Below the pieces are notes generated by a model. It had not been told where the DNA came from, did not search any database, and saw only the letters and a program-made list of their open reading frames with translations. The translations under genes were made by a program, and so were the position numbers. 64,000 nucleotides of DNA from Tepidicaulis marinus (lineage in GTDB: Bacteria > Pseudomonadota > Alphaproteobacteria > Parvibaculales > Parvibaculaceae), in contig NZ_BBIO01000017.1 in the NCBI RefSeq assembly GCF_000739695.1, positions 1 to 64,000 on the forward strand. The letters are read 5' to 3'. Of this stretch, positions 4,394 to 35,917 are shown in pieces. Numbering within the stretch: the stretch's first letter is position 1; every line of letters begins with the position of its first letter.

Positions 4394-5146
4394 ATGGGAC
4401 GGGTAGACGGGAAAATCGCCTTTGTGACGGGCGGCGCCAACGGCATGGGGCGTTCCCACGCCTTGCTGCTTGCGCGCGAGGGCGCAACGCTGATCGTGAC
4501 CGACATGGACGAGAAGGGCGGCAACGCCGTGGTCGAGGAGATTAACGATCACGGTGGGCAGGCGCGATTTTTCAAACACGATGTGTCGAGCGTCTCGGAT
4601 TGGGAACGGATTTCACAGGAGGCGATGTCCACTTTCGGACGCGTCGACATCCTTGTGAACAATGCCGGTATTCTCGTTTTTTCTGCTGTCCAAGACACCT
4701 CGAATGAAGACTTCGCACGTGTTCTCGACGTCAATGTAAAAAGCGTATTCTATGGTACGAAGTATATATTACCCGCGATGAAGGCGGCTGGCGGTGGTTC
4801 GATCGTCAATATTTCCTCGATCTACGGACTGATTGGCGCGCCTGCCACGGCGGCGTATCAGGCATCGAAGGGTGCCGTTCGCCTGCTGACAAAATCGACG
4901 GCTGTGGATTATGCGCCTTTCAAGATTCGTGTGAATTCCGTACACCCCGGAATCATTCGCACAAATATGACCAAGGATCTTCTCGGCGATGCGGATGTCG
5001 CCAAACAGGTCTTGAGCGCCACGCTTATTGGTCGGCCGGCCGAACCCGTCGAGGTTTCCTATGCGGTCCTGTTTTTGGCATCCGATGAGTCCTCTTATAT
5101 GACCGGCTCCGAGGTTGTCGTTGACGGAGGCTACACGACCATATGA
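4394..5146 (+). CDS. Short-chain dehydrogenase/reductase (SDR)
   Basis: A 250-residue classical SDR. It has the cofactor motif TGGANGMG near residue 12, the NNAG motif, catalytic Ser in NISSIYG, the YxxxK pair (YQASKGA), and the C-terminal SYMTGSEVVVDGGYT. Asp at the end of the second beta strand (VTDMDEKGG) suggests NAD(H) preference. The start at 4394 follows CGGGAGGACTGC. The family oxidises secondary alcohols or 3-hydroxyacyl-CoAs; here it could make the ketone for the Baeyer-Villiger enzyme or act in beta-oxidation. Confidence 0.9.
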   Translation: MGRVDGKIAFVTGGANGMGRSHALLLAREGATLIVTDMDEKGGNAVVEEINDHGGQARFFKHDVSSVSDWERISQEAMSTFGRVDILVNNAGILVFSAVQDTSNEDFARVLDVNVKSVFYGTKYILPAMKAAGGGSIVNISSIYGLIGAPATAAYQASKGAVRLLTKSTAVDYAPFKIRVNSVHPGIIRTNMTKDLLGDADVAKQVLSATLIGRPAEPVEVSYAVLFLASDESSYMTGSEVVVDGGYTTI

Positions 5147-5264: not shown

Positions 5265-5600
5265 ATGAGTACATCCGCTGTGAGCAACTCATTCAACCGC
5301 ATTCGCCACGATCTCGATTCGTGTCTTGTCGAGGACCCATCGAGCGGTCGCTTCATGCTCGACCGCGCCATATTCACTGATCCTGAATTGTTCGATCTCG
5401 AGATGAAGCACATCTTTGAGCGCAGTTGGGTGTTTCTCGCCCATGAAAGCCAGCTCGTCAACGAAAGCGCCTTTCTGACCCTGACAATCGGTCGTCAACC
5501 CGTGCTTCTGATCCGGAACCGGCCGGGTGATTTGAAATGCTTTGAAAATGCGTGCACGCATCGCGGTGCGCGGCAGGGAGGCGTTGGCGCCGTGGCTTGA
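5265..5600 (+). pseudogene. Truncated Rieske ring-hydroxylating dioxygenase alpha subunit, N-terminal relic
   Basis: The first about 100 residues match BenA-type large subunits: MLDRAIFTDPELFDLEMKHI, then SWVFLAHESQL, GRQPVLLIRNR and the first Rieske half-site CTHRGA. The second Cys-x2-His half-site and the whole catalytic iron domain are missing. Homology stops at about 5577, where the sequence runs straight into a PdxA-family relic. It still has a good ribosome site (AAGGAAG before 5265), so a short peptide could be made, but it cannot assemble the cluster. Confidence 0.8.
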
Positions 5601-6266
5601 CGAAACGAGCGCCCTTGCATCCGGCGGTACCATAGCGGCTGGCGTCATGGCGCCAATCAACTACGGTTCCCTCAAACTTGCCCGCAAGGTGCCGGGCATC
5701 GCCAGTCCGGCCCACCGGCGAAAGCTATCTTGTTCTACTGATCGGACCGTTCCGCGTCCCGCATCAGACCGACCATATTCCGCTTCGGCGCGTTTGCGAA
5801 ATCATCAGCCCCGATCTCGTGGCGCTTGCCTTGCGGCAGATAGTGGGCGCCGTGCGGAACTGGGGGGATCGCCCGTCCGCAGATTGTTGTCGCAGGTCTC
5901 AACCCTCACGCGATGGGAAATGAAGATTGCGAAGCCATCGCGCCCGGCGTCGCGCGGGCGTGGGCAGAAGGCATCGATGTTGAAGGGCCAGTAAGTCCTG
6001 ACGCCGTGTTCCGGCAATGCGTCGAAGGTCGATACGACATCGTTCTCGCTATACATCACGATCAGGGACACCTCGCGGTCAAGACATGGGGCTTTTCCGG
6101 CAATTGCGCCATCATCCTCGGGCCGTCCTACCTGCATGTGACGGTCGCGCATGGGGCGGCCTATGACATTGCGGGCAAGGGCATCGCCGATCCGGTGATG
6201 ATGCTGAGCGCCATGCGCACGGCGGCCTCTCTTGCTGCGGGCCGGGGATTTCCCGAGGAACGCTGA
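5585..6266 (+). pseudogene. PdxA-family dehydrogenase, frameshifted relic
   Basis: Three pieces in different frames give one PdxA-family protein. The first is about 5585-5700 (VMAPINYGSLKLA). The second is about 5715-5865 (SYLVLLIGPFRVPHQTDHIP, including the metal-binding His region). The third is about 5866-6266 (PQIVVAGLNPHAMGNED, HHDQGHLAVKTWGF, TVAHGAAYDIAGKGIADP). The second shift falls at a run of six G near 5861-5868. PdxA-family enzymes include 4-hydroxythreonine-4-phosphate dehydrogenase and the cis-diol dehydrogenase TphB of terephthalate degradation. Beside a Rieske subunit the latter role is more likely for the ancestor, but this is inference. Boundaries are approximate. Confidence 0.75.
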
Positions 6267-6284: not shown

Positions 6285-6752
6285 TTATGTTCGGGCGGCG
6301 TCAGACCGGCCAGCCACCATTCGCAATGGCGTATATTCGATCACCGTTTCGTTCCGTTGAGTCACGATCCGGTTGTGGGTGCGCACCAGACCGTGACCCT
6401 TGGATGTCGGTCGCGCCTGAAGCACTTCGCATTCCACATGAATCGTGTCGCCGACAAATGTCGGTCCGTTGGCGTTAAAATCCATGTGAAGAAAGGCGAG
6501 GCCCGTCTCCTGCATCATCGACTGAACGAGCAAACCTTCCGCCATGCAATAGACCAGCGCCTCGGACACCACACGACCGTTCATAGGGCCGTGGGCCTTG
6601 AGATATTCGACATCGGTGAAGAGAACTTCCACCATACCTGTCGTATTGATGAAATTGATCAGGTCGGTTTCGGTGATCATCCGGCCGATGGTGCGGAACT
6701 CCTCGCCGGCGGTGAGGTCGTTCCAGCACATGCCAAGTCCTATTTTTCGCAT
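6285..6752 (-). CDS. MaoC-like hotdog-fold protein lacking the usual catalytic dyad
   Basis: A 155-residue single hotdog domain that starts like MaoC dehydratases (WNDLTAGEEFRTIGRMITETDLINF). The position that normally holds the Asp-x-Asn-x-x-His motif reads NTTGMVEVLFTDVEYL, so the hydratase Asp/His pair seems absent. It ends with the typical DTIHVECEVL and VTQRNETVIEYT strands. The start at 6752 has AAGGAGAGGGC before it. It lies 88 bases downstream of the CYP153 gene on the same strand and may be cotranscribed. It may be a CoA-ester binding protein or a thioesterase-like enzyme rather than a hydratase. Confidence 0.75.
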   Translation of the reverse strand: MRKIGLGMCWNDLTAGEEFRTIGRMITETDLINFINTTGMVEVLFTDVEYLKAHGPMNGRVVSEALVYCMAEGLLVQSMMQETGLAFLHMDFNANGPTFVGDTIHVECEVLQARPTSKGHGLVRTHNRIVTQRNETVIEYTPLRMVAGRSDAART

Positions 6753-6840: not shown

Positions 6841-8106
6841 TCAGCCTGGAATTCTGACCGGCATGCTCGAGTAACCCTTGATCAGATTTGAAAAAACCCG
6901 TGTCGGTTCGCCGACCACTTCGATCGGCTTGTCGGGCCAGCGTTTCAGGATTTCCTCCCAGACGACGCGGAGCTGCATTTCCGCCAGCCGGTTGCCGACG
7001 CAGCGATGGATGCCGAAGCCGAAGGACAGGTGCTGGCGTGGGTGCTTGCGGTCAATGATGAAGCTGTTGGCGTTTTCGATTGCCTCCTCGTCCCGGTTTC
7101 CCGAGACGTACCACATGACGACTTTGTCGCCTTTCTTGATCTGCTTGCCGCCAAGCTCCGTATCCTGAAGCGCGGTGCGGCGCATATGCGACAAGGGTGT
7201 CTGCCAACGAATGATTTCGGGGACCATGGATTCGACGAGCGCCGGGTTGTCCCGCAGCTTCTTGTATTGAACCGGGTTCTCGTTCAGGGCCAGAAGGCCG
7301 CCGGTGATCGAGTTGCGGGTCGTGTCGTTGCCGCCGACGATCAGGAGAAGAATGTTTCCCAGATACTCCATCGGCCCCATGTTTTTCGTCGCTTCGCCTT
7401 GGGCCAGCATGGTGATGAGATCGTTGCCCGGCTCGGTTGCGTTGACGCGCTGATTCCACAACTCGGTGAAGTAGGCGGCGCAATCGCGCAATTCATTCCT
7501 GCGGGCCTTCTCGGCCTCCTCGTCGCCGAAGGCGGTGCCTGCGGTGGCGACATCAGACCAGCGGGTGAGCTTCCGGCGTTCTTCCCAAGGGAAATCGAAA
7601 AGGGTAGCGAGCATTTGCGTCGTCAACTCGATCGACACGCGGTCCACCCAGTCAAAGGTTTCATTGATGGGCAGGGAATCGAGAATTTTGCCGGCGCGCT
7701 CGCGGATCGTGCTTTCGAGTTTCGCCAGATTGCCGGGTGCGACGATCGGGCTCACAACCTTGCGCTGCGCGTCGTGCTTCGGCGGGTCCATCATGATGAA
7801 CATGGGCAGGAAGAAACCTTCTTCCTGATTGCGGAGGGCGACGCCGCCCAGGGTCGCTTCAGACGAATAGATGCCGTGGTTGGTGTCGACATGCATGATG
7901 TCTTTGTATTTTGTCACCGACCAGAACGAGCCGTATTCGCTTTCCTTGCAGTAATGGACCGGATCTTCGCGGCGCAACCGCTCGAAATACGGCCAGATCG
8001 CATTCGCCCTGAAGAGCTCCGGATTGCTGACATCGATCTTCTCAAGCGGGATCGCGTAGGCGTCCGCAATCGGCTTGTCTCGATCGGCACCCAGGGATTC
8101 ACTCAT
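6841..8106 (-). CDS. Cytochrome P450, CYP153 family
   Basis: A 421-residue soluble class I P450. It has the I-helix motif GGNDTTRN (about residue 260), the ExxR helix (PEIIRWQTPLSHMRR) and the haem loop FGFGIHRCVG with Cys at residue 369. The segments FIMMDPPKHDAQRK, FDWVDRVSIELTT and TLFDFPWEERRKLTRWSDV are characteristic of CYP153, whose members hydroxylate terminal or unactivated carbons of alkanes, cycloalkanes, fatty acids and terpenoids using ferredoxin and ferredoxin reductase. A ribosome site (ATGGAGA) precedes the start. The closest partner ferredoxin lies at 16119-16445. A paralogue lies at 14779-16032 and a third is reduced to a fragment at 8220-8357. Confidence 0.93.
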   Translation of the reverse strand: MSESLGADRDKPIADAYAIPLEKIDVSNPELFRANAIWPYFERLRREDPVHYCKESEYGSFWSVTKYKDIMHVDTNHGIYSSEATLGGVALRNQEEGFFLPMFIMMDPPKHDAQRKVVSPIVAPGNLAKLESTIRERAGKILDSLPINETFDWVDRVSIELTTQMLATLFDFPWEERRKLTRWSDVATAGTAFGDEEAEKARRNELRDCAAYFTELWNQRVNATEPGNDLITMLAQGEATKNMGPMEYLGNILLLIVGGNDTTRNSITGGLLALNENPVQYKKLRDNPALVESMVPEIIRWQTPLSHMRRTALQDTELGGKQIKKGDKVVMWYVSGNRDEEAIENANSFIIDRKHPRQHLSFGFGIHRCVGNRLAEMQLRVVWEEILKRWPDKPIEVVGEPTRVFSNLIKGYSSMPVRIPG

Positions 8107-8219: not shown

Positions 8220-8357
8220 TTGCATTTCCGCATCGTCTGGGAAGAAATTCTGAAGCGTCGGCCCGACAAGCCGATCGAAGTGGTCGGCGAACCAAAGCGG
8301 GTCTTTTCCAACTTCATCAGGGGCTATAAGGAATTGTCGGTAAGAATCCCGGGCTGA
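8220..8357 (+). pseudogene. C-terminal remnant of a third CYP153 P450
   Basis: The forward strand here encodes FRIVWEEILKRRPDKPIEV followed by VGEPKRVFSNFIRGYKE and a stop at 8355-8357. This is the last about 45 residues of a CYP153 protein, very close to the C-terminus of the intact gene at 6841-8106 but on the opposite strand. Upstream homology ends abruptly near 8222 and there is no start codon or haem loop. Its 3' end overlaps the 3' end of the enoyl-CoA hydratase gene on the other strand. Confidence 0.85.
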
Positions 8358-9178
8358 ACATGGATGAGGCGGGTGGAAAACGTCCACCCGCCACATAAGA
8401 TCGAAGGAGGTCGAAGGCAGCGCGGCGCGTGGCCGCCGTCATTTTTTCCGAATGAGGCGACCCGTTCGCGCGCGTCGTAGCAGGCACCGGGGCTATGCGC
8501 GAGTTCGTAGGCCAGTCCCGCCTGGGCGGTCATGCCATCGGTCGCGCCCAGCAGACTTTTGTTGACCTGATTGCTGTAGGTTGAATTGACGGCGATACGC
8601 TGAGCAAGGTCATTTGTCGCCTGTTCCAGTTCGGCATCGTCGACACACATGTCGACCAGCCCCATGCGCTCGGCCACCTCCGCCGTGAAAATATCGGAGG
8701 TAAACATCATCTGCTTGGCCTTCGACAGCCCGACGCGACGTGGCAGTCTTTGCGTCATGCCCCAGAGCGGGCTCAGTCCCCACTTGCTATGCGTGTCGCC
8801 GAACTTGGCGGAGCGCGCAGCGATGATGATGTCTGCCGCGAGCGCAAGTTCCAGTCCGCCAGTATAGCAATGCCCACGGATGCAGGCGACGACCGGTTGC
8901 GGCAGTTCGGCCAGCGCCTGAATGATCTTCGCCTGGAAATGCGGTTCCGGCTGGCGCTCGCCTTTCTGGATGTCCTTCAGGTCGTGGCCGGCTGAAAAAG
9001 CCTTGCCCGCGCCCGTGATGATGACGCATGCCACCTCGTGAACCTGTCCACGAAGCGCATCTACATGCATGCGCAATTCTTCGAACAGCGGGACATTGAG
9101 CGCGTTCAAAGTTTCCGGACGGTTGAGCGTTAGCGTACAAACACGTCCGCTGTCCTTGCGAAGAATCAGATTCGACAT
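8324..9178 (-). CDS. Enoyl-CoA hydratase/isomerase family protein
   Basis: A 284-residue crotonase-fold protein. It shows SAGHDLKDI (oxyanion-hole region), then GHCYTGGLELALAAD with the first of the two crotonase Glu positions, and LSPLWGMTQRLPRRVG. The second Glu position (usually GxPE) reads GDTHSK, so a simple syn-hydratase mechanism is doubtful; an isomerase, hydrolase or other crotonase reaction is possible. The start at 9178 has AAGGGAG before it; the frame stays open further upstream but without family homology. The last about 40 residues after VASFGK are not family-like and run into the CYP153 relic. One more A in the A6 run near 8444-8449 would give FGKK-stop, so the tail may be a frameshift product. 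Confidence 0.85.
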   Translation of the reverse strand: MSNLILRKDSGRVCTLTLNRPETLNALNVPLFEELRMHVDALRGQVHEVACVIITGAGKAFSAGHDLKDIQKGERQPEPHFQAKIIQALAELPQPVVACIRGHCYTGGLELALAADIIIAARSAKFGDTHSKWGLSPLWGMTQRLPRRVGLSKAKQMMFTSDIFTAEVAERMGLVDMCVDDAELEQATNDLAQRIAVNSTYSNQVNKSLLGATDGMTAQAGLAYELAHSPGACYDARERVASFGKNDGGHAPRCLRPPSILCGGWTFSTRLIHVQPGILTDNSL

Positions 9179-9270
9179 CGGCTTTCTCCCTTCTTCTTCT
9201 CGATCTTTATTTGTTTGGGTTGTCTTCATCTGTCGAAGACGTACACGCGTGAATGAATCCACCCGTGGAG

Positions 9271-10146
9271 CTACGATGTGCTCGCGGCAGGCGCCATTCG
9301 CGTCAGAAAATCCAGAACGGCGCTTGTAAATATGTCGTTCTTGTCGCCCGCTACCATATGGCCCGCATTTGCGACATCGATAAACTCGGAATGAGGAACA
9401 ATTTCGGCGAATTGTCGCGCCGCTTCGACCGTCACGAGGTCGCTGTCGCGGCCCCGGACAAGGAGCGTCGGTATTTTCAGGGAACGTGCCGCCATCTGGA
9501 GGCGTTCGGGTTCGCGGCTGCCTTGCGGCTTTTGCGTGCCGGTGATGAAACGTGGATCCCAATGCCAGTAGTAGCGGCCGTTTTCCCTGAGGCGAAGGTT
9601 CTTTGCCAGTCCGCTCAGGTTTTTGGGGCGAGGCCGACCGGGCATGTAGCGCGAGATCGTATCGGCTGCTTCCTCAAGCGAGGCGAAGCCTTCTTCCAGA
9701 TTTGACGCCATGAATCCGAGGATTTTCTGAACCCCCTCCATGTTCATCTGAGGGGTGATGTCGACGAGGACCAGCGCCGCAAACCCGCGCCGTCCGGCCT
9801 TTGCGTATTCTCCCTGCGCGATCATGCCCGCGATGCCGCCCAGAGATGCGCCGACCAGGACCGGAGGCACGGAGAAGCCGTCCGCGATGTCGAGGAGATC
9901 CTCCGCAAAACGCTCCATCCTGTAGTCTCCGTCCGGAGACCAGTCGCTTTCGCCGTGCCCGCGCAAATCGACGGAGAGGGCGTAATACCCGTTTTCCCCC
10001 AACCTTTTACCGCAGGCTTGCCAAGCGTGGCGCGTCTGCCCGCCGCCATGGGCGAGCATGACCGGCCGCGCCTGGTCGGGACCGAATGCGTCAGCGGCAA
10101 TTTTGAGATTTTGGGCAAGGGTGAACAAGGTCCGGTTTGCTGACAT
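9271..10146 (-). CDS. Alpha/beta hydrolase
   Basis: A 291-residue alpha/beta-hydrolase. It shows the oxyanion region AHGGGQTRHAW, the conserved DLRGHGESDW, the nucleophile elbow GASLGG, the acid region RGRDSDLVT and the catalytic His in NAGHMVAGD. The family includes lactonases, esterases, epoxide hydrolases and C-C hydrolases. Beside a Baeyer-Villiger enzyme an ester or lactone hydrolase role is attractive but not shown. The ATG at 10146 is preferred; the codon just before it is a TTG. It is divergent from the GntR regulator gene, and the shared gap holds an operator-like palindrome at 10192. Confidence 0.82.
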   Translation of the reverse strand: MSANRTLFTLAQNLKIAADAFGPDQARPVMLAHGGGQTRHAWQACGKRLGENGYYALSVDLRGHGESDWSPDGDYRMERFAEDLLDIADGFSVPPVLVGASLGGIAGMIAQGEYAKAGRRGFAALVLVDITPQMNMEGVQKILGFMASNLEEGFASLEEAADTISRYMPGRPRPKNLSGLAKNLRLRENGRYYWHWDPRFITGTQKPQGSREPERLQMAARSLKIPTLLVRGRDSDLVTVEAARQFAEIVPHSEFIDVANAGHMVAGDKNDIFTSAVLDFLTRMAPAASTS

Positions 10147-35317: not shown

Positions 35318-35917
35318 ATGGTGAGGCCCGCCGTGAAGCGCGCGGCTGTTGCGCATCTGCAGGCTCGGATGGGTCTGTCGGAACGGCGGTTCCGCTTCCT
35401 CAACGTGGTCGATGATGTTACTCGGGAGTGCTTGGCGGCGATCCCGGACACCTCGTTCTCGGGACGACGCGTCGCACGAGAACTGGCTCGGGTGATCGAA
35501 CGGCGTGGCAAGCCTGGCATGATTGTCAGCGACAATGGCATCGAACTGACCAGTAACGCGACCTTAACCTTTGCTGCCGAACGCAACATCGAGTGGCACT
35601 ACATCGCTCCGGGCAAGCCGATGCAGAACGGGTTCGTGGAGAGTTTCAACGGCAGGATGCGCGATGAGCTTTCGAACGAGAGGATGTTCCGCAGCATGGC
35701 CCACGCCAGAACGGTGATCCGCTCATGGGCCACCGACTACAACGAGGAGAGACCGCATTCGGCCCTCGGCTACCAGACGCCCAAGGCGTTCGCCGAGGAC
35801 CTGGTCACCGCAACCGACAGTCGCGCTGCGCCACTTGAAAGCTCCACGCATCTGTCGGTTGCTCCACCTGCGCAAGTCGGCGTATCAACCCAAAGGGCTC
35901 CGGTTCTAGATGGATGA
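35318..35917 (+). pseudogene. IS3 OrfB lacking part of the catalytic core
   Basis: The 199-codon frame starts as OrfB ([20 protein letters not shown]) and after ERR jumps to [20 protein letters not shown]. The roughly 90-100 residues between, with the first catalytic Asp, are gone. The second Asp (IVSDNG), the NGFVESFNG Glu and the C-terminus ([14 protein letters not shown]) remain. It cannot be an active DDE transposase. Confidence 0.85.

Follow-up and report, generated by a model that had tools for sequence, protein, structure and literature searches.

Positions 5265 to 6266 of the window, by which we mean the whole analysed stretch of 64,000 nucleotides from Tepidicaulis marinus, raise the question of why the beginning of a Rieske oxygenase runs straight into the end of a PdxA-family dehydrogenase, and what the two once did together. 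We conclude, with a probability of about 0.9, that this segment is a dead pseudogene remnant of a unit made of an oxygenase alpha subunit, a beta subunit and a PdxA-family dehydrogenase, out of which 1,906 bp have been deleted. The relic itself is ordinary decay of a known kind, and the worthwhile lead is the clade of intact PdxA-family proteins, which are probable diol dehydrogenases.

Layout of the relic

The ATG at 5265 opens the Rieske oxygenase alpha piece, of which about 103 codons remain (Table 1). Among the NCBIfam models it fits BenA TIGR03229 best (positions 1-87 of 433) and its Pfam Rieske match (E 6.4e-9) covers profile positions 1-49 of 88 only; judged as a full oxygenase it falls short, with C-T-H present and the second half-site (CPFH in intact genes) deleted along with the catalytic domain. 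The alpha reading frame closes at 5600, nine codons past CTHRGA, and the PdxA-family piece comprises the last ~230 codons of its gene, the first ~100 being missing and the gene's own stop retained. A Pfam search with the first part of this piece, in the frame of 5542, gives no match, the frame of 5681 matches PF04166 at 20 bits, under the 27-bit cut-off, and the frame 5865-6263 matches positions 162-286 of 286 at E 5e-41. The original prediction had described both a BenA-like alpha breaking off after CTHRGA, with PdxA-family sequence behind it, and two frameshifts in the PdxA part; the first is confirmed by the frame end and by the TIGR03229 and PF04166 matches, and the second by two +1 insertions in the alignment to three intact genes (those of G028, G014 and G034).

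Table 1. Features of the relic and its surroundings, in positions of the window
Feature	Position	Strand	Evidence or remark
Catabolic island containing the relic, segments common with Parvibaculum-type genomes	853-34950		right end near integrase-core ORF
Left flank: SDR oxidoreductase, intact	4394-5146	+	96-100% identical in 12 genomes of another genus
Alpha relic, 5' part (BenA/XylX-like), codons 1 to ~103, past the first Rieske half-site C-T-H	5265-5577	+	85-91% amino acid identity to intact 470-aa alpha, 7 genomes
Deletion junction CGGTGCGCGGC	5564-5574	+	one copy here; in intact G028 one in alpha and one in pdxA-like
pdxA-like relic, piece 1, frame of 5542	5575-5709	+	identified by aligning it with intact genes
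First +1 insertion relative to intact genes	about 5710-5715	+	alignments to G014, G028, G034
pdxA-like relic, piece 2, frame of 5681	5716-5861	+	PF04166 positions 113-159
Second +1 insertion, six G against five in three aligned intact genes	5862-5867	+	alignment
pdxA-like relic, piece 3, to original stop codon	5868-6266	+	PF04166 162-286 of 286; 90-92% identical to the 333-codon frames of 7 intact genes
Right flank: MaoC-like protein, intact	6285-6752	-	same position in 10 related loci compared
Right flank: cytochrome P450, intact	6841-8106	-	95.7-99.8% identical in 10 related loci compared

The frame thus changes three times in the relic, at the join itself and at the two +1 shifts, and a fusion protein was ruled out as the join is out of frame. 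That the surviving open reading frames encode a new functional small protein is hardly credible: frames of 111 and 117 amino acids are indeed open, but the second Rieske half-site, the remaining alpha, the beta subunit and the N-terminus of PdxA are absent, the frame changes remain, and in two other genomes (G025 and G018) the pdxA remnant has shrunk to about the last seven and the last three codons, respectively. The two +1 shifts could be sequencing errors, one of them sitting in a G run, yet even then the missing 1.9 kb would stay missing. Elsewhere in the genome a query of the N-terminal 106 amino acids found a single weak Rieske match (E 1.2e-6), and contig C43 carries an intact true pdxA.

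Intact counterparts and the deletion

In seven of 40 same-family genomes, Parvibaculum lavamentivorans among them, an intact alpha-beta-pdxA-like triad stands at the corresponding place. Its genes are consecutive and encode 470, 164 and 329 amino acids, and the seven genomes that hold the uninterrupted counterpart of the PdxA piece are the same ones that hold the alpha match. The two pieces are not a chance pairing, as they match, at 85-92% identity, intact genes that are grouped in seven other genomes. The intact triads are preceded by the SDR of the window and followed, on the opposite strand, by its MaoC and P450 genes; in G034 and G038 about 3.9 kb of extra genes separate the SDR from alpha, and this gap is longer in G039 too. 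That a deletion occurred within a former ring-dihydroxylation cluster, as presumed, is shown by seven counterparts with the same neighbors (two of them with the extra genes between SDR and alpha). It was also proposed to look for genomes with the oxygenase and dehydrogenase genes intact and adjacent: they do occur together in all seven, but a beta-subunit gene lies between them. Two of the genomes, G014 and G036, show no differences over the compared stretches. The extra block of G034 (L038, 3550-7319) encodes an additional Rieske alpha, for which the best model is HcaE-like, together with an SDR similar to BphB/HcaB and an extradiol dioxygenase similar to BphC, and the gap between SDR and alpha in G038 is similar to it. 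For P. lavamentivorans DS-1, the accessible part of the genome paper gives one BenAB-type dioxygenase, Plav_1761/1762 (PMC3368416), from which we infer that these are the same genes as the intact oxygenase of G014.

In G028, whose alpha is the closest to that of the window, the 11-bp repeat CGGTGCGCGGC occurs both in alpha and in the pdxA-like gene, at the two ends of the segment that is missing from the window, where a single copy is left; in the remaining six intact genomes the two stretches have at most 6-7 bases in a row in common. By BLAST coordinates the length lost between the repeat copies is the 1,906 bp given above. The deletion between the copies of this short repeat took away alpha from codon ~104 onwards, the entire beta gene and ~100 codons from the start of the dehydrogenase.

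For the last 133 codons of pdxA, the window compared with each of the seven intact genes gives dN of 0.038-0.048 and dS of 0.19-0.29, against 0-0.024 and 0-0.27 for the 21 pairs of intact genes. The window has 16 nonsynonymous and 13 synonymous changes that are private to it, and the private changes of four intact genomes add up to 13 and 39 (Fisher p 0.0086), a count from a modest sample in which the reference is seven genomes for the window and six for each intact genome, and in which G014, G036 and G039 are omitted from the sum as near-copies. The alpha piece alone has dN/dS of 0.17-0.44, which overlaps with the intact pairs. Within this sample, relaxed selection on the surviving codons is clear for the pdxA piece and weak for alpha alone.

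These changes also bear on an assembly or sequencing artefact, by which the operon would be intact in the organism and both the join and the shifts would come from misassembly across the short repeat. The assembly is a draft of 46 contigs, the relic lies ~5 kb from a contig end and one shift is in a G run, all of which speak for such an artefact; however, it would leave the excess of nonsynonymous changes in the surviving pieces unaccounted for, as well as the loss of the same operon in five other genomes with other breakpoints. Moreover, the words used in assembly are usually far longer than an 11-bp repeat, and we regard the artefact as quite improbable.

Repeated loss of the module

The flanking SDR is found at 96-100% identity in 13 of the 40 genomes, the window's included, and at 78-82% in three more. 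Seven of these 13 have the intact triad and six have lost it, with four sets of breakpoints, which means at least two losses and probably three or four. G013, G016 and G030 have a common deletion that is larger than and different from that of the window, plus a second internal one; the window's deletion and theirs may be nested rather than independent. In the left-flank tree G025 stands beside the intact G034, and only in the right-flank tree is the window sister to G013, G016 and G030 (95/95). From these discordant trees, exchange between lineages is likely. The repeated loss of the module from an otherwise conserved degradation island suggests that it is a dispensable side branch, and the series of 13 loci is a compact case of one pathway branch repeatedly lost from an island that apparently moved between genera.

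The catabolic island

The island around the relic contains genes for a thiolase, a CoA ligase, P450s, a luciferase-like monooxygenase, amidohydrolases and acyl-CoA dehydrogenases, and consists of segments at 92-98% nucleotide identity to G013, G014 and G016. A comparison of one gene, core PdxA, gives the window's genome 53-58% identity to four genomes from other genera of the family, none of them an island carrier, and 86% to the sister species G001. G001 itself gave no match to the SDR at E 1e-120 and none to alpha at E 0.001. Acquisition of the island by horizontal transfer is the simplest reading.

An integrase-core ORF (rve/rve_3) is situated at 35318-35917, near the right end of the island, and the ORFs beyond it look like ordinary chromosomal genes. 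At 8221-8226 a block of ~7-10.5 kb is present in G014, G015, G016, G025, G034, G038 and G039 and missing from the window; in G014 it includes a second CoA ligase, SDRs, an acyl-CoA dehydrogenase and two enoyl-CoA hydratases. G013 has the same join at 8221-8226 as the window and yet a different alpha-pdxA deletion, which is a sign of recombination between versions of the island. As to the substrate of the island, an alicyclic or terpenoid acid is our guess.

The PdxA-like clade

In a tree of 39 sequences (midpoint-rooted and with several long branches) the window's piece belongs to a Rieske-linked group of 14 (100/99), which is apart from six core PdxA rows and also from the Rhodococcus TphB-type proteins. 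The label core PdxA is based on the SurA-like and RsmA-like neighbors of L001 and L004, named by eye, and the TphB type to L170 and L171, the latter checked against 4aty (E 1e-93). A separate origin of the Rieske-linked clade and TphB is likely from this topology. The intact PdxA-like gene scores 208.7 bits with TIGR00557, whose cut-off is 290.35, and remains under the cut-off of all seven PdxA-type models that it matches. The G-H-T motif, which we take to be the phosphate-binding motif of PdxA, was found in none of 21 Rieske-linked rows (17 distinct proteins) and in all 16 core PdxA rows, these being 16 of 20 core loci with L019, L029, L031 and L033 left out. Among 71 rows not linked to Rieske genes 43 have G-H-T, 18 have G-H-M and ten have neither by pattern, though nine of those ten still have G-H; the solved TphB structures are also without G-H-T. 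At the level of sequence, the clade is separable from real PdxA and from TphB.

The structure predicted for the intact protein has the PdxA fold (pLDDT 91.4). The solved structures nearest to it, both by sequence and by fold, are of the PdxA2 or D-threonate-4-phosphate dehydrogenase type (4jqp, 6e85 and 2hi1, Z 38-39), followed by PdxA (35-37) and TphB (30-33), an order that neither supports nor excludes a TphB-like reaction. The PdxA2-type structures have a P-G-H-T-E block, and the Rieske-linked rows do not. TphB (4aty, 8zhy-8zj7) resembles the clade in belonging to the PdxA family, in its pairing with a Rieske oxygenase, in the lack of G-H-T and in the fold similarity just given, but differs in its separate position in the tree, in an identity of 28-30% by structural alignment and in another loop at the site of the motif.

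The piece could in principle be a decayed vitamin-B6 PdxA or D-threonate-4-phosphate dehydrogenase, beside the Rieske piece by accident, as its best NCBIfam models are PdxA-named and the fold is nearest to 4jqp and 6e85. The placement in the Rieske-linked clade, away from the core PdxA rows, the scores below all PdxA-type cut-offs and the grouping of the three genes in sphingomonads as well make this very improbable. Identity with pyridoxine PdxA is ruled out by the tree and the missing G-H-T, and the original prediction, for which clustering with pyridoxine PdxA would have been an adverse result, stands in this respect. Its lead to TphB of terephthalate degradation does not: the dehydrogenase is in a separate clade and the oxygenase is BenA/XylX-like, not TphA-like. 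Identity with TphB was rejected on the tree and the BenA-like partner, with the functional analogy kept.

A scan of 84,980 species shows how closely the clade is tied to Rieske genes. Among the 80 matches listed, all nine relatives of at least 51% identity adjoin alpha and beta genes, and they come from Parvibaculum, Novosphingobium, Hyphomonas, Sphingopyxis, Sphingobium and Extensimonas; none of the 71 relatives at or below 40% stands beside alpha or beta genes, the criterion being a tblastn match at 1e-5 to either of the Parvibaculum subunits at loci of which some are short, so that a distant alpha could escape. In Extensimonas the nearest alpha is ~2 kb downstream of the PdxA-like gene and not upstream. 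All five plasmid loci opened carry Rieske genes beside the PdxA-like gene, and pNL1, pF2 and p1 hold the triad. A class-wide sample has relatives at E <= 1e-90 in three of 385 genomes, G036 and two others. In one of these two (L197/L199) alpha and beta adjoin the PdxA-like gene; in the other (L196/L198 of G267, gene at 9071-10123, 60% identical) no alpha or beta match was found in 11.5 kb, the contig ending ~1.4 kb beyond. This exception lowers the odds for the enzyme function and for the second-lineage reading considered below. The neighbors of the gene in L198 are aldo/keto reductase-, hydrolase- and hydratase-like ORFs, named by eye.

Two PdxA-like proteins of 42% identity on Caballeronia and Sphingobium AntQ-1 plasmids (L088 and L089) are situated beside other Rieske alpha/beta pairs; they are sister to the main clade, lack G-H-T and keep the arginine of I-R-T. 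A PdxA-family protein of Acididesulfobacillus acetoxydans (L121, 6001-6984) has G-Y-P like TphB and groups with the TphB-type rows (98/99), and there was no match to the alpha/beta query near it.

Function of the intact module

BenA TIGR03229 (595.5 bits, L037) is the best model for the intact alpha and BenB TIGR03232 (173.5 bits) for the intact beta, both scores lying under the equivalog cut-offs (780.95 and 225.55, respectively). BenD and XylL, the dehydrogenases that work with BenAB and XylXY, are SDRs, whereas the partner in the intact module is of the PdxA family. The intact oxygenase would dihydroxylate the ring of a benzoate-like acid with O2 and give a cis-diol carboxylate. By analogy to the chemistry of TphB, we consider it somewhat probable that the PdxA-family enzyme oxidised, and decarboxylated, this cis-diol to a catechol, i.e. 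did the job of BenD/XylL. The wider reading is more tentative, with slightly less than even odds: that this is a second lineage, apart from TphB, in which a PdxA-fold (decarboxylating) cis-diol dehydrogenase was recruited to a BenAB/XylXY-type dioxygenase in place of the SDR, the module then being repeatedly deleted from a mobile degradation island that kept its other genes.

The same arrangement is known from sphingomonad plasmids, where pNL1, pF2 and p1, as well as pLA1 and Sphingobium PNB in papers, have like the intact genes here the order XylX, XylY, '4-hydroxythreonine-4-phosphate dehydrogenase'. Compared with the intact Parvibaculum genes, those of pNL1, pF2 and p1 have identities of 56-61% for alpha, 54-59% for beta and 68-69% for the PdxA-like enzyme. 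On these plasmids the triad is intact, beside bphC and further oxygenase genes, whereas in the window it is wrecked and stands in an acyl-CoA/P450 island. In the accessible part of the PNB paper xylX, xylY and the next ORF overlap (PMC4048848), and in that of the pLA1 paper the proteome table has the order xylX, xylY, 4-hydroxythreonine-4-phosphate dehydrogenase (PMC3946609); by analogy to this order, we infer that the PNB ORF after xylY is probably the same dehydrogenase. By the account of the PNB authors, XylXY in E. coli converts benzoate and p-toluate to catechols, which arose with no PdxA-like gene among the constructs named in that part of the text, where the authors also state that no role could be assigned to the 4-hydroxythreonine-4-phosphate dehydrogenase and name a separate XylL (PMC4048848).

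A separate XylL is one of the points in favor of a different assignment, by which oxidation of the diol in the intact module falls to the SDR at 4394-5146 or to another SDR and the PdxA-like enzyme has some other role. This SDR is the next conserved gene upstream, BenD and XylL are members of the same family, in pNL1 a gene named hcaB, a diol dehydrogenase by name, is ~12 kb from the triad, and the exceptional relative mentioned above has no Rieske gene in the 11.5 kb of DNA examined. Yet the window and the five other genomes that lost the oxygenase have all retained the SDR at 4394-5146 (at 96-99% identity in those five), which indicates that it has another role; no SDR is present within ~8 kb downstream of the sphingomonad triads among the plasmid genes listed in an incomplete table, and most members of the PdxA-like clade are linked to Rieske genes. 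We therefore find the SDR assignment rather unlikely and prefer the PdxA-family enzyme as the candidate diol dehydrogenase.

In the accessible part of the open-licence literature on PdxA together with dihydrodiol, Rieske, benzoate or terephthalate, we found no biochemical test of the Rieske-linked clade. The order alpha-beta-pdxA-like in the intact loci means that terephthalate is not the indicated substrate. P. lavamentivorans DS-1, which carries the module, does not grow on benzoate according to the accessible part of its genome paper (PMC3368416), and the natural substrate may for this reason be a substituted benzoate. The plasmid records examined label proteins of the clade PdxA, a vitamin-B6 enzyme, and the clade thus offers a testable reassignment.
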